In this document: positions 1,478 through 52,072 of the stretch, in pieces
Layout of the letters: the number at the start of each line of letters is the position of its first letter
How positions within the stretch are numbered: position 1 is the stretch's first letter
Position numbers and translations under genes: made by a program
Assembly (NCBI GenBank): GCA_902785365.1
Contig: CACZYC010000007.1
Span: 1 to 64,000, forward strand
Length of the DNA stretch: 64,000 bases
Direction: 5' to 3'
Origin: an uncultured Ruminococcus sp.
GTDB lineage: Bacteria; Bacillota; Clostridia; Oscillospirales; Acutalibacteraceae
The notes under the pieces: generated by a model
What the model was told of the DNA's origin: nothing
The model's database searches: none
What the model saw: only the letters and a program-made list of their open reading frames with translations

Positions 1478-2320
1478 CTAGACCGCGGATTTTTTGCGTA
1501 CTCTGATGTGAATTACCCAAATAGCTACGGCGACTACAATCAGCACAATGGAAATTACAATCATATCGGATAGAACTGTGGATAGAATTGACGTGTACAT
1601 ATCGCTCAGCGAACGTGACAAAATTGCGATATGTTCTATTACACCCGACGCAAAAATACAGATGGGCAAAATCAGCAGAAACAGCCCCGCCGAGCTTATT
1701 GCCGTGTAGATATAGCGCAGAGCCTTGTGTTTCCACTCGTTTGTAGCAATGAGTATAACGCAAATAGCCGCGCTGATCAAAGCCAGAATAACTATCAGCA
1801 CCGTCAGTAATCCCGCGTTATTGATGATAAGGTCTTGAATGGCGGAGAAGTATTTGATTTTGATACTGTTGGAGTAAATCTTGCTGGCTTTAGCGGAAAA
1901 GTATTCGAGATTTTCCTCGTTTACGTTTTTGATATGATGTGTTTTTATATATTTCGTGAGAGCGTTCTGAAGGCTTTCGTCGAACTTTGAGGTGTTAATC
2001 TTCAAGGGCTTTCCTTCGTAAAAGTTTGTGATGTAGGTTTGAACATCCTCGCGAACGAGAACCTCGCTGACAAACCCCTCAAAGAAACTCTTATCGAGAC
2101 CAGAGGCGTCGCCCAAATCAGTCAGATTATCGGTTATTTCCACGCACAGATCTTTGTAATACTGTGAGGAGTTGAGTGTGTCCGAAAGAAAGTTAGCGTT
2201 AAAAAATGTTATACGAAGTACGGTTATAAGAGAACCGAAAACAAGGCAAAGCGCCAGAATGAATGTAAGTATGGCATATAAAACTTTTTTTATGGAAAGT
2301 TTTTTAAATATTTTTTTCAT
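1478..2320 (-). CDS. membrane protein of unknown function
   Basis: The protein has 280 residues. One N-terminal membrane helix (about 14-36) is followed by a roughly 130-residue, mostly polar extracytoplasmic segment, then three helices at about 167-192, 203-228 and 245-270, and a basic tail (RVRKKSAV). I do not recognise the family. It starts 11 bp after the sortase stop codon with AAGGAGG 5 nt upstream of ATG, so it is the third gene of the sortase operon. That placement suggests a role in envelope or surface-protein assembly (inference only). No clear terminator follows it. Confidence 0.6.
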   Translation of the reverse strand: MKKIFKKLSIKKVLYAILTFILALCLVFGSLITVLRITFFNANFLSDTLNSSQYYKDLCVEITDNLTDLGDASGLDKSFFEGFVSEVLVREDVQTYITNFYEGKPLKINTSKFDESLQNALTKYIKTHHIKNVNEENLEYFSAKASKIYSNSIKIKYFSAIQDLIINNAGLLTVLIVILALISAAICVILIATNEWKHKALRYIYTAISSAGLFLLILPICIFASGVIEHIAILSRSLSDMYTSILSTVLSDMIVISIVLIVVAVAIWVIHIRVRKKSAV

Positions 2321-30378: not shown

Positions 30379-30846
30379 ATGAAAGAATCCATAAAAAAGT
30401 TTTTTGATATTAAATTCTGGAAATTCCTTTTGGTCGGCGTAATAAACACCGCTGTCGGCGAAGGAGTGGTGTTGCTGTGCCTGCATCTGATAGGTTGGAA
30501 GAACTTCGTGTGGGGCGCGGGAGCCGCCGCGGTCGCGGGTACTGTTATCGGAAGTATTGTCAGTTACTTTTTAAACAAATACTTTACTTTCCAGAACAAA
30601 GAAAAAGGCTTCAAGCCAATGCTGCGCTTTACGCTGAATATTGTGGTTTGTTTGCTCATAAGAGTTATCGCCGCAACTGCGGTCAGCGAGCTATGCAAAG
30701 CGTTGTCGCTTTCAATGTTCGGAATGGACGTCAATTCCTTCGCGGGAAATATGGGCTGGGCAGTCGGCGCGTGCGTATTTGTAGCGTGCAACTACATCGG
30801 TCAGCGTTTCTTCGCCTTTAAGGAAAAGGAAGAGCCCGAACAATAA
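30379..30846 (+). CDS. GtrA-family membrane protein
   Basis: 155 residues from ATG 30379 (GGAAGTGAT upstream; the longer TTG frame is not needed). Four membrane helices and the family pattern FWKFLLVGVINTAVG near the start, SYFLNKYFTF between helices 2 and 3, and NYIGQRFFAFK at the end. GtrA-like proteins are thought to flip undecaprenyl-phosphate-linked sugars across the membrane. The divergent YfhO protein is a plausible user of such a lipid-linked sugar. Confidence 0.83.
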   Translation: MKESIKKFFDIKFWKFLLVGVINTAVGEGVVLLCLHLIGWKNFVWGAGAAAVAGTVIGSIVSYFLNKYFTFQNKEKGFKPMLRFTLNIVVCLLIRVIAATAVSELCKALSLSMFGMDVNSFAGNMGWAVGACVFVACNYIGQRFFAFKEKEEPEQ

Positions 30847-30878
30847 ACCATTAACAAATGAATTCTGTGACAAAATTA

Positions 30879-30908
30879 TCCCACGCGAAATTATCGCGTG
30901 GGATTTTT
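30879..30908 (+). terminator. terminator of the GtrA-like gene
   Basis: A 10 bp stem (TCCCACGCGA with TCGCGTGGGA, loop AATTA) followed by TTTTT. Confidence 0.85.
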
Positions 30909-30923
30909 AATAGAAAGAAGCTA

Positions 30924-30952
30924 TTGAAATAAACGAACATTTGTGTTATCAT
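30924..30952 (+). promoter_or_regulatory. promoter of the small hydrophobic peptide gene
   Basis: -35 TTGAAA (30924-30929), 17 bp spacer, extended -10 TGTTATCAT (hexamer 30947-30952). The predicted transcript has an untranslated leader of about 105 nt. Confidence 0.7.
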
Positions 30953-31065
30953 ATAATACAAGGAGTTGTCCGAACACATAACGGAAGCGGTTAGCCCTCC
31001 GCCAAGGTACTGATAACCTTGTTTACATAGAACCCAATAGGGAATATGTATTAGGAGGGATTGTT

Positions 31066-31131
31066 ATGTATGAAATTATTCTATACTTAACAATTATTCT
31101 CTTAATTGTTTTGACTAACAAAGAGAAATAA
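31066..31131 (+). CDS. 21-residue hydrophobic peptide (type I toxin-like)
   Basis: The frame encodes MYEIILYLTIILLIVLTNKEK: an acidic residue near the start, one hydrophobic helix of about 14 residues, then a charged tail. AGGAGGG lies 6 nt upstream of the ATG, an excellent ribosome site. The long leader contains a CAAGGT/ACCTTG hairpin (31003-31021). The stop codon is inside the stem of a bidirectional terminator, and a promoter on the opposite strand points at the gene. Small size, single helix, long structured leader and convergent antisense promoter are hallmarks of type I toxins such as Fst and TxpA. I do not recognise the exact family. Confidence 0.65.
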   Translation: MYEIILYLTIILLIVLTNKEK

Positions 31132-31159
31132 CCGCCCTGGACCATAGGACGGTTATTTT
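31127..31159. terminator. bidirectional terminator shared by peptide mRNA and antisense RNA
   Basis: A 12-position stem with one mismatch (AATAACCG-C-CCT with AGG-A-CGGTTATT, loop GGACCAT), then TTTT on the plus strand and TTCTCTTT on the minus strand. Confidence 0.8.
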
Positions 31160-31212
31160 GTAAATAACTCATAATATGGGCTAACCGTTTCGCTCGGTCA
31201 ACTCCGTTTTCT
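31127..31212 (-). ncRNA. candidate antisense antitoxin RNA
   Basis: From the strong minus-strand promoter at 31219-31246 an RNA would start near 31212 and end at the shared terminator, about 85 nt. No gene on that strand could use it. It overlaps the 3' end of the peptide mRNA, including the terminator stem. Extent and function are inferred from promoter and terminator positions. Confidence 0.5.
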
Positions 31213-31218
31213 ATAATT

Positions 31219-31246
31219 ATTATAGCATAAAGAGAAGAAAAGTCAA
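31219..31246 (-). promoter_or_regulatory. antisense promoter facing the peptide gene
   Basis: Minus strand: -35 TTGACT (31241-31246), 16 bp spacer, extended -10 TGCTATAAT (hexamer 31219-31224). It is closer to consensus than the peptide promoter, as expected for an antitoxin RNA. Confidence 0.72.
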
Positions 31247-31291: not shown

Positions 31292-32962
31292 TTATTTCGG
31301 CATTTCGGTGATGATTTCGTTTACTGTCTTTCCGGGCGGAATCATTGGCAGAACGTTAGCGTCGGGGCTGATGATACAGTCGATTACAACGGGGCCGCCT
31401 AGACCGATAGCTTTTTCGAATACATCGTCAATGTCCTCGGTCTTGTCGAGTCTGAACGCGGGGATACCAAATCCCTGAGCAACCTTTACAAAGTCGGTTT
31501 TGCGCTTGGGGTCGGTCTGGGAGAAACGATTTCCGTAGAAGAGCTTCTGCCACTGTCTTACCATGCCGAGAACTCCGTTGTTAAATATTACGACTACAAC
31601 AGGCAAATTGTAAGACTTGAGCGTTACCAGCTCGTTTAAGTTCATATGGAAGCTGCCGTCGCCCGTTACAAGGAAAACTCTTTTGCCGGGGCAGCCGCAC
31701 TGGGCGCCGATAGCCGCGCCGAGTCCGAAGCCCATTGTACCCATACCGCCCGAGGTGAGCAGTGTTCGGGGACGTTCAATCTCGGAGAACTGAGCAACCC
31801 ACATCTGATGCTGTCCGACATCTGTGGAAATGATGTCCTCGGGACGTTTAACCTCGTTGATTTTCAGGAGAACATCAAGCGCTGACATATAGTCAAGCTT
31901 TTCTCTCGGAGCCTGATGCTCGCCTTTCCAGATTTCAAGCTGAACAAGCCATTGGGTGTGGCTCTGCTTTTCTACATAATTGTTTAAAATACTGAGAACC
32001 GATTTTATATCGCCGACGATGTGGTTGTCGGTTTTAACATTCTTGTCGATTTCATTTTCGTCAATGTCGATGTGAATGATGTTAGCCTGATTACCGAACT
32101 TATTGGGGTTACCCGCTACACGGTCGGAGAATCTCGCTCCGCAGGCTATGATCAGGTCGCACTTTTCGGTAGCCATACCCGTAGCGTAGGTTCCGTGCAT
32201 ACCGAGGTTGCCCATATTGAGTCTGTGGGTTGCGGGAATACAGCCCAAGCCCATAAGTGAGCAGCACACGGGAGAGTCAATCTTTTCGGCAAACTCAAGA
32301 AGCTCCTGTGAGGCGTCCGCGCTTATTACGCCGCCGCCCGCGTAAATGATAGGATGTTTTGCCTGGTTGATGAGCTCAACCGCTTTGGTAATATCCTCCG
32401 CGCTGGTTACCTCGGCGGGGACTCTCGTCGGCGGAGTGACATACTTATAATCCGTTATCTGAGCGGTAATATCCTTGGGAACATCTATGAGAACAGGGCC
32501 TTTCCTGCCGTCCTGAGCCAGCGCGAATGCTGTACGGATAGCGGGAGCCAGGTCCTCTATACGTTTAACAAGATAACAGCCCTTTGTGATAGGCTTAACA
32601 ATATCTACAATGTTGACCTCCTGGAAGCTGTCGCGACCAAGGAGATTTACGTTTACATTACCCGTGATGATAACCATGGGAATACTGTCGATGTTGGCTG
32701 TGGCGATACCTGTTACGGTATTTGTCGCGCCGGGACCCGAGGTTGTCATACAAACGCCAACCTTGCCCGTAGCTCTGGCGTAACCGTCCGCCGCGTGAGC
32801 CGCTCCCTGTTCGTGGGCGGTGAGAATATGATTAATCTTATCGCTGTATTTGTAGAGAGCGTCATAAGTGTTCAGCGCCGCGCCGCCGGGATAACCGAAA
32901 ACGGTGTCGACATTCTGTTCAATTAAGCACTCGCAAATAATCTCAGCGCCTGTAAGCTGCAT
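31292..32962 (-). CDS. ilvB: acetolactate synthase, large (catalytic) subunit
   Basis: 556 residues. Thiamine-diphosphate enzyme at the first common step of valine/leucine/isoleucine synthesis. N-terminal PYR domain with GYPGGAALNTYDAL and EQGAAHAADGYARATGKVGVC (cofactor Glu), central FAD-type domain, C-terminal PP domain with GDGSFHMNLNELVTLKSYNLPV and the metal-binding FNNGVLGMVRQWQ. Motifs favour the biosynthetic AHAS over catabolic AlsS. AAGGAAG lies 12 nt before the ATG. No small regulatory subunit (ilvN) is adjacent. leuCD lies 7 kb away on the other strand. Confidence 0.92.
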   Translation of the reverse strand: MQLTGAEIICECLIEQNVDTVFGYPGGAALNTYDALYKYSDKINHILTAHEQGAAHAADGYARATGKVGVCMTTSGPGATNTVTGIATANIDSIPMVIITGNVNVNLLGRDSFQEVNIVDIVKPITKGCYLVKRIEDLAPAIRTAFALAQDGRKGPVLIDVPKDITAQITDYKYVTPPTRVPAEVTSAEDITKAVELINQAKHPIIYAGGGVISADASQELLEFAEKIDSPVCCSLMGLGCIPATHRLNMGNLGMHGTYATGMATEKCDLIIACGARFSDRVAGNPNKFGNQANIIHIDIDENEIDKNVKTDNHIVGDIKSVLSILNNYVEKQSHTQWLVQLEIWKGEHQAPREKLDYMSALDVLLKINEVKRPEDIISTDVGQHQMWVAQFSEIERPRTLLTSGGMGTMGFGLGAAIGAQCGCPGKRVFLVTGDGSFHMNLNELVTLKSYNLPVVVVIFNNGVLGMVRQWQKLFYGNRFSQTDPKRKTDFVKVAQGFGIPAFRLDKTEDIDDVFEKAIGLGGPVVIDCIISPDANVLPMIPPGKTVNEIITEMPK

Positions 32963-51484: not shown

Positions 51485-52072
51485 TCAATAGTTCCTTACA
51501 AGCGAGATAACTTTGCCAAGAAGTATTACCTCGTCAACAATAATCGGTTCATAGCTGTCGTTTTCAGGCTGCAAGCGGAAATGTCCGTCCTCTTTGTAAA
51601 AACGCTTTACAGTAGCGCTGTCGTCAACGAGGGCAACGACAATTTCGCCGTTGCGCGCTACGGGAGTGCGGTTAACTATGAGTACGTCGCCGGGCATAAT
51701 ACCCGCGTTAATCATACTTTCGCCTTTGACCTGAAGCGCGAAAAGCTCCTTGCCGCGGCTCATATTTTTGTCAACGGATACATAACCCTCCACGCTCTCT
51801 ATCGCGACAATCGGGTTACCCGCGGCGACATCGCCGAGAATCGGCACGCTTTTGGCGCTTGTCTCGCCGACAACTTTAATACAACGGTTGAGCCCCGCCT
51901 CACGTTCAATCAGACCGTGTTCCTCGAGAGCTTTAAGGTAAAGATGTGCGGTTGAAGTCGACTTGAGCCCTACATCACGGCAAATCTCACGGACTGACGG
52001 AATTTTTCCGTCGTCCGAACATTCTATTAAATAGTCGTATACGGCTTGTTGTTTCTTTGTCAAAGGTTTCAT
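51485..52072 (-). CDS. lexA: LexA repressor
   Basis: 195 residues. The start is ATG 52072 with AGGAGG 6 nt upstream; the much longer open frame upstream is not coding. N-terminal winged helix (1-65, PSVREICRDVGLKSTSTAHLYLKAL), self-cleavage site Ala84-Gly85 (DVAAGNP), catalytic Ser119 (KGESM) and Lys156 (ATVKRF). It represses SOS genes until RecA filaments trigger autocleavage. Followed by the zinc-ribbon membrane protein gene. Confidence 0.95.
   Translation of the reverse strand: MKPLTKKQQAVYDYLIECSDDGKIPSVREICRDVGLKSTSTAHLYLKALEEHGLIEREAGLNRCIKVVGETSAKSVPILGDVAAGNPIVAIESVEGYVSVDKNMSRGKELFALQVKGESMINAGIMPGDVLIVNRTPVARNGEIVVALVDDSATVKRFYKEDGHFRLQPENDSYEPIIVDEVILLGKVISLVRNY

Follow-up and report, generated by a model that had tools for sequence, protein, structure and literature searches.

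A predicted type I toxin-antitoxin module with mirrored 5' elements in an uncultured Ruminococcus, and its relatives in the Clostridia

Introduction

Type I toxin-antitoxin (TA) systems are hard to find, as both of their parts are tiny. Such a system is recognized by a small hydrophobic open reading frame (ORF) that is under selection and has a ribosome-binding site, and by a separately transcribed RNA complementary to the toxin mRNA. Here, we describe a locus with these properties at positions 30,924 to 31,246 of a 64,000-nucleotide stretch of DNA (the window; contig CACZYC010000007.1, positions 1 to 64,000) from an uncultured Ruminococcus sp. The locus is very probably a chromosomal type I TA module, with a probable link, in its own clade, to the SOS response.

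Several described systems resemble it in part. In bsrG/SR4 of Bacillus subtilis, a small hydrophobic toxin of the Hol_Tox kind is encoded by an mRNA that sequesters its own Shine-Dalgarno (SD) sequence, and a convergent antisense RNA pairs with the mRNA 3' end. The RNAs of txpA/RatA, also from B. subtilis, converge and overlap at their 3' ends over ~120 nt (PMC3531473), and overlaps of 100–140 bp are given for the B. subtilis systems (PMC6562991). In par/Fst of pAD1 and the Fst/Ldr systems, convergent promoters share a bidirectional terminator, and an mRNA 5' sequence sequesters the SD (PMC7472228). The direct repeats DRa and DRb of par give its two RNAs complementary 5' regions. Two reviews (PMC6562991, PMC6563280) name SOS-controlled type I toxins only for E. 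coli (symE, tisB, and dinQ). The corresponding modules, tisB/istR, symE/symR, and dinQ/agrB, have a LexA box at the toxin promoter, and the products of tisB and dinQ are small membrane peptides.

The locus and its reading frame

The elements named in the original prediction, which was made from the sequence of the window, are present (Table 1). A 21-residue hydrophobic peptide follows a ribosome-binding site, the toxin promoter has an extended -10, the opposing promoter is the stronger of the two (11/12 consensus positions against 10/12), and a bidirectional terminator extends over the stop codon. The inverted repeat that places nearly the same sequence at the 5' ends of both RNAs is real and conserved. 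Its arms are nearly identical, as proposed, but not equal in length, since the mRNA copy contains an extra CGGAAG segment that the antisense copy does not have. A minus-strand RNA of about 85 nt had also been expected; a small antisense RNA is indeed predicted, and its length is corrected to ~90 nt. Transcript ends were placed from promoter and terminator positions. The two RNAs would overlap by ~40 nt at their 3' ends, in a fully complementary stretch that takes in the stop codon and the terminator. The conserved opposing promoter, the structured RNA, and this overlap together point to a separately transcribed complementary RNA.

Table 1. Predicted features of the locus (window coordinates).
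Feature	Position	Strand	Basis
Toxin promoter, TTGAAA-17-TATCAT, TG extended -10	30924–30952	+	10/12 consensus match; kept in paralogues and homologues
Candidate LexA/SOS-type box CGAACATTTGTGT, between toxin promoter -35 and -10	30934–30946		Motif match, matrix score 11.9, clade conservation
Inferred toxin mRNA, ~203 nt	30959–31161	+	Promoter and terminator positions; fold z -4.9
5' element X of toxin mRNA, GGAGUUGUCCGAACACAUAACGGAAGCGGUUAGCCC, hairpin-forming, 36 nt	30962–30997	+	
Anti-SD sequence CCCUCC, partner GGAGGG (31054–31059)	30995–31000	+	RNAalifold consensus of 14 class A mRNAs; leader minimum-energy fold
Toxin SD AGGAGGG, predicted sequestered (mean unpaired probability 0.05)	31053–31059	+	
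Toxin ORF, 21-aa hydrophobic peptide MYEIILYLTIILLIVLTNKEK	31066–31131	+	dN/dS 0.06 over 11 homologues
Bidirectional intrinsic terminator, 13-bp stem, contains stop codon (31129–31131)	31126–31158		Compensatory stem changes
Inferred antisense (antitoxin) RNA, ~91 nt	31122–31212	-	Covariance model R1 match, 70 bits (locus in R1 training set); fold z -3.5
5' element X' of antisense RNA, GGAGUUGACCGAGCGAAACGGUUAGCCC, 5' hairpin, 28 nt	31178–31205	-	Hairpin pairs kept, some via compensatory changes
Antisense promoter, TTGACT-16-TATAAT, TG extended -10, without LexA box	31219–31246	-	11/12 consensus match

The arrangement is more than a chance assembly of motifs, as it recurs in its own genome, at dozens of loci in congeners, and across the order. 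This is the outcome of the search for peptide and inverted repeat in related genomes that the original prediction had proposed; the LexA box, the anti-SD sequence, the other copies in the genome, and the extent of the family had been overlooked there. The own genome (1.96 Mb in 39 contigs; designated G000) holds two further complete copies, at C1:171245-171560 and C15:8822-8545, whose ORFs, read from the sequence, begin with GTG (MSTLIEEIIALLFLVILLEIIKYIKK and MSKLSEYILLIIFMVVLSELIKDIKK, respectively), and one antisense-only copy at C1:101505-101430. R1, a covariance model of the antisense RNA built from 56 sequences, finds these four known loci in the genome and nothing further at E below 0.01. 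In the antitoxin-only copy (L014 1931-2051, minus strand; G000:C1:101430-101550), the toxin half is replaced by a repetitive extragenic palindromic (REP)-like repeat (GCCCTCCCTTGGGGGAGGG...), and locus L047 of congener G015 has the same arrangement.

Purifying selection on the peptide frame is strong. By the Nei-Gojobori method, dN/dS is 0.06 in class A (11 sequences), 0.24 in class B (5), 0.12 in class C (11), and 0.08 in class G (7), and in class D there are zero replacement changes among 5 sequences. These values bear on the reading of the locus as a small non-autonomous mobile element, similar to a miniature inverted-repeat transposable element, in which the repeats would be terminal and the ORF incidental. 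The inverted repeats, the scattering of several copies over unrelated sites of a genome, and the tandem copies all agree with such an element, and the original prediction had pointed to it in case the repeat was kept while the peptide frame was not. The frame is kept, however, so it is coding capacity that is conserved, and conservation reaches past the repeats to both promoters. The repeats are maintained as RNA hairpins with compensatory changes, and the peptides change in kind while their position, the SD, and the terminator stay. Copies lie at unrelated genomic sites except for one ortholog, found at the same site in a congener with 86% identity over 3.3 kb. A mobile element is thus highly improbable, and in effect ruled out by the conserved frame and the orthologous copy.

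One scaffold with different peptides

Across related loci the scaffold is constant and the peptide is variable, with ORF position, SD, and terminator kept. Class A peptides have the form MYEIILYLTIILLI..., class B MSxLSEYILLIIFMVVLSELIKDIKK, class C MQYVTYSDLFAFAMFIVGIITLVFTILMFTHKK, and class D MEMYFIFALILLYSIGFILSIKK; other peptides found on the scaffold are, for example, MEYATIITLVLIIALFIIIKKD and MEYLTVIVIILIAATGYILAIKKK. Class C peptides exceed the Pfam Hol_Tox cut-off (25.3 versus 23.3 bits), and several more distant scaffold peptides, at the order and phylum level, also match Hol_Tox at 28.7 to 46.4 bits. The three own-genome peptides gave no match to Pfam or NCBIfam toxin families, Fst included.

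The toxin leader and the antisense RNA occur together. A leader pattern that is independent of the antisense RNA has 28 sites in 150 congeners and 0 in the control, and a comparison of coordinates places an R1 match on the opposite strand within ~300 nt at 28/28 of these sites. In about 10 of 95 antisense loci the toxin ORF is lost or truncated. This asymmetry, in which the leader is never without antisense and the antisense is sometimes without toxin, is suggestive of an antitoxin that outlives its toxin, the two samples having been found by different routes. Frame conservation, scaffold conservation, a known toxin family on the scaffold, and an antisense RNA beside every leader thus support the type I TA reading first proposed from the window.

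The same sequence evidence would fit a non-toxic regulatory or signalling membrane peptide under the control of a cis-antisense RNA and, in the window's clade, of the SOS response, that is, a damage-induced membrane modulator; that the window peptide matches no toxin family agrees with this. Relatives with the same scaffold carry Hol_Tox peptides, however, and TA modules typically show high copy number, frequent exchange of the peptide, and loss of the toxin while the antisense RNA is retained. We therefore consider a non-toxic peptide unlikely.

Size and spread of the family

A DNA search of 150 congeners found homologues in 24 genomes; most of the genomes compared are metagenome-assembled genomes (MAGs). 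A pattern for the antisense 5' element matched 84 stretches in a collection with one genome per species, nearly all of them from MAGs of gut or rumen Clostridia named Ruminococcus, Eubacterium, or Oscillospiraceae. Matches in Duganella, Actinomadura, and Planctomycetota were set aside, since a handful of chance matches is to be expected with a pattern of this kind. From the pattern matches 95 distinct antisense loci were extracted. With R1 at E<=0.001 the family is found in 68 of the 150 congeners and in 115 of 394 genomes of the order (~29%), which represent 63 of 168 genera, with up to 11 copies per genome; at E<=0.0001 it is found in 24 of 399 genomes of the phylum. Because R1 E-values are rough, 29 order-level and 20 phylum-level loci were inspected individually. 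The majority have the full scaffold and a small hydrophobic ORF, and some of the phylum-level loci have the antisense part alone or no clear ORF. Tandem pairs of modules occur at L046 (G015:C60:32427-33077) and L018 (G101:C94).

The collections of phages and plasmids searched contain no DNA match to the locus, and a pattern scan of IMG/VR matched two contigs. No earlier description of the family was found in the open-access literature searched, subscription papers being outside that scope. The modules thus form a large, Clostridia-wide, and apparently not previously described family. One covariance model of the antisense RNA is enough to find them, and the family supplies dozens of new small membrane peptides. 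The window's branch is not covered by any Rfam family. The search with this model gives access to the TA systems of major Clostridia of the gut and rumen. Matched scaffolds with differing peptides are a natural experiment, in which the requirements of the RNA part can be told from traits determined by the toxin.

RNA structure and the mirrored 5' ends

Covariation is present in both helices of the antisense RNA. Its 5' element folds into a hairpin whose pairs switch between G-C, G-U, and A-U, some of the changes being two-sided, and compensatory changes are numerous in the terminator stem. Across the wider family, a CUACC...GGUAG hairpin is a frequent form of the mRNA 5' element. The resemblance between the two 5' ends comes from the hairpin, of which each has its own version. 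The X arms of one locus are more alike than those of different loci (1.0 versus 1.74 mismatches; 0 of 5000 permutations), and the arms of a locus evolve together, with phylogeny or gene conversion as possible causes. In some related mRNAs an extra 5' hairpin, which varies by locus, stands ahead of X (GGACATTAAGTTGTCC, GAGCTTTTGCTCTC, GGAACAAATATGTTCC; e.g., L094, L101, L117, L131).

Hairpin conservation also bears on whether X acts as DNA, as an operator at which a protein, bound a short way past each start site, regulates the two promoters together. Such an operator would be compatible with a TA module; X begins a few nucleotides from both inferred start sites, and its sequence is strongly conserved. 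Spacing and loop length within X vary, however, antisense X keeps its hairpin through G-C/G-U/A-U exchanges, and mRNA X differs from antisense X by the extra CGGAAG/CGGUAG segment. An operator role is thus distinctly unlikely. The original prediction had suggested a further role, pairing of the mRNA leader with its own read-through 3' region. This is not borne out: the conserved terminator stands in the way, each repeat copy already forms its own 5' hairpin, and evidence for the pairing was not found.

The consensus fold of 14 class A mRNAs (RNAalifold) suggests what lies behind X in the leader. CCCUCC, immediately after X, pairs with the SD sequence GGAGGG, and two conserved hairpins are enclosed. 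For the window leader, this pairing is the minimum-energy fold whether the RNA ends at the AUG or at codon 10; in the full mRNA the SD is predicted to pair with the coding region instead.

The full duplex of mRNA and antisense RNA has a predicted gain of ~43 kcal/mol (-134.4 versus -61.7 and -29.8). X itself is nearly self-complementary, and an X:X duplex of -20 to -28 kcal/mol is possible in classes A and B. The mean z-score of this duplex against shuffles is -1.07, and cofolding the two X elements of the window gains ~1 kcal/mol over separate hairpins, so that an X:X contact between the two RNAs, as a substitute for the par-like contact, is weakly indicated by these models. Antisense recognition is therefore assigned to the 3' overlap, and X is taken as a structural element of the 5' end, right next to the anti-SD sequence. 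In class B, TTGTCCGA of X occurs again around the start codon, as a further copy of the element's arm (e.g., L013 ~1890-1930, minus strand), and here the arm of the antisense hairpin could pair with the toxin initiation site.

A candidate LexA box at the toxin promoter

The window contains a lexA gene (51884-52072, minus strand). In most of 30 congeners the lexA promoter contains [AG]AACAAATGTTTG, in agreement with the C. difficile LexA operators AGGAACAAATGTTTGC and GAGAACAAATGTTTGT used in surface plasmon resonance assays (PMC4234289). A weight matrix built from 27 lexA promoters of the genus gives mean scores of 8.6 (class A) and 10.9 (class B) for toxin promoters, while shuffles score 1.0 ± 4.0; antisense promoters average -0.2 and -1.1, respectively, and that of the window scores -3.3. 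Of the clade's 19 toxin promoters, 16 contain a strict LexA pattern, against an expectation of 0.1 (the loci being dependent through shared descent), and none of the 19 antisense promoters does. At L016 the box has a different position, and at L257 and L260, from another family of the class, LexA-type boxes adjoin the -10.

Counts of GAACRNNYGTNY across the genome show no overall enrichment, and the LexA claim therefore rests on promoter position and clade conservation. A LexA box was looked for at recA and not found. The data point to a predicted LexA operator on the toxin promoter only, and not on the antisense promoter, in the window's clade, and the toxin gene is probably switched on by DNA damage. 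If true, LexA control would tie membrane toxins of these bacteria to DNA damage.

Three other boxes were seen in the same genome, with gene identities assigned by reading. The promoter of a yifB/comM-like gene (L086 1021; G000:C8:9621) contains CGAACGTTTGTGTGATACAAT in a box/-10 layout near-identical to that of the toxin promoters, and SOS control of this gene is possible. The box GAACATTTGTTT lies immediately upstream of a gene for a Y-family polymerase, an expected SOS gene (L088; G000:C13:43201), and a second time inside an intergenic promoter, between its -35 and -10 and accompanied by additional GAAC half-sites (L089; G000:C16:7983).

How the module may work

Sequence elements, conservation, selection, and co-occurrence favour a type I TA module, and the following mechanism is proposed for it. 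The toxin mRNA would be translationally silent, its SD buried by CCCUCC of the leader while the RNA is nascent and by the coding region once it is complete. The convergent promoter would yield the short antitoxin RNA, whose last 40 nt are complementary to the mRNA 3' end. Contact between the complementary terminator loops may start a duplex whose growth would lead to degradation, or lock off translation, or both, as in bsrG/SR4, txpA/RatA, and Fst. In the window's clade LexA would act on the toxin promoter only, so that upon DNA damage toxin mRNA would exceed antitoxin and the membrane peptide would act, as in tisB/istR of E. coli. The mirrored X elements would supply the same kind of 5' hairpin to both RNAs.

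Some findings weigh against this picture. The SD is predicted to be buried even without the antisense RNA, and the overlap of ~40 nt between the RNAs is short. The window's own peptide matches no toxin family, Hol_Tox (PF16935) included. In the toxin-promoter boxes one half-site is GTGT and not GTTT/GTTC. Classes C, D, and the rest have matrix scores of ~2, so most other classes lack the box, and SOS control is therefore considered a trait of the clade.

A wider proposal, which we hold tentatively and regard as possible rather than probable, is that of a Clostridia-wide type I TA family in which one scaffold with mirrored 5' elements takes interchangeable toxins. X would be a functional RNA part that couples the decay of toxin mRNA and antitoxin, or that engages the partner RNA and the anti-SD switch, and LexA would have gained control of the toxin in separate lineages, so that Gram-positive gut bacteria would possess SOS-induced type I toxins.

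Neighbouring sequences

The module is flanked by gtrA (30382-30846, plus strand) and by an acetolactate-synthase-type gene (31292-32962, minus strand). Between gtrA and the module, at 30878-30904, there is a strong terminator-like stem of 11 bp on both strands.

Relation to known systems

At Rfam gathering scores no RNA family is found on the scaffold, the single match being a tRNA elsewhere in L226, and weak matches in the window, such as Ref1C (E 0.07), were taken as chance. RatA has no match in the window even at E 5, and BsrG (RF01412) has none in the window or its own genome. Distant scaffold members, however, match BsrG at E ~5e-8 to 7e-6; three found by R1 score 36.9–44.5 bits, below the cut-off of 55, and reciprocally the BsrG model matches loci beside R1 matches in two genomes (G001 and G162). 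Since distant members match BsrG and Hol_Tox peptides occur on the scaffold, the family would belong to a type I TA superfamily related to bsrG/SR4. As an analogy, the parallel drawn with par and txpA/RatA in the original prediction holds; distant scaffold relatives match BsrG.

The window locus is not a formal member of BsrG, Hol_Tox, or Fst/par. With par/Fst and Fst/Ldr it has in common the convergent promoters, the shared bidirectional terminator, and an mRNA 5' sequence predicted to sequester the SD. Its repeats are inverted, as first noted, so that the two RNAs are alike where those of par are complementary, and it has neither an Fst-type peptide match nor an Rfam match. Like the SOS-controlled E. 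coli modules, it has a LexA box on the toxin promoter, none on the antisense promoter, and a small predicted membrane peptide as in tisB and dinQ; it differs in its unrelated sequence, in the overlap at the 3' end, and in a LexA box of Gram-positive type. The 3' overlap of convergent RNAs is that of txpA/RatA, and a toxin of the Hol_Tox class occurs on scaffold relatives, but the antisense RNA is much shorter and the overlap is about a third as long. With bsrG/SR4 it would share the small hydrophobic toxin, the convergent antisense RNA directed at the mRNA 3' end, and SD sequestration within the mRNA. From its sequence, the locus is thus best described as a relative of systems like bsrG/SR4 that has diverged from them: its toxin is its own and not of the Hol_Tox class, its antisense RNA is short, its 5' elements are mirrored, and LexA control is predicted in its clade.
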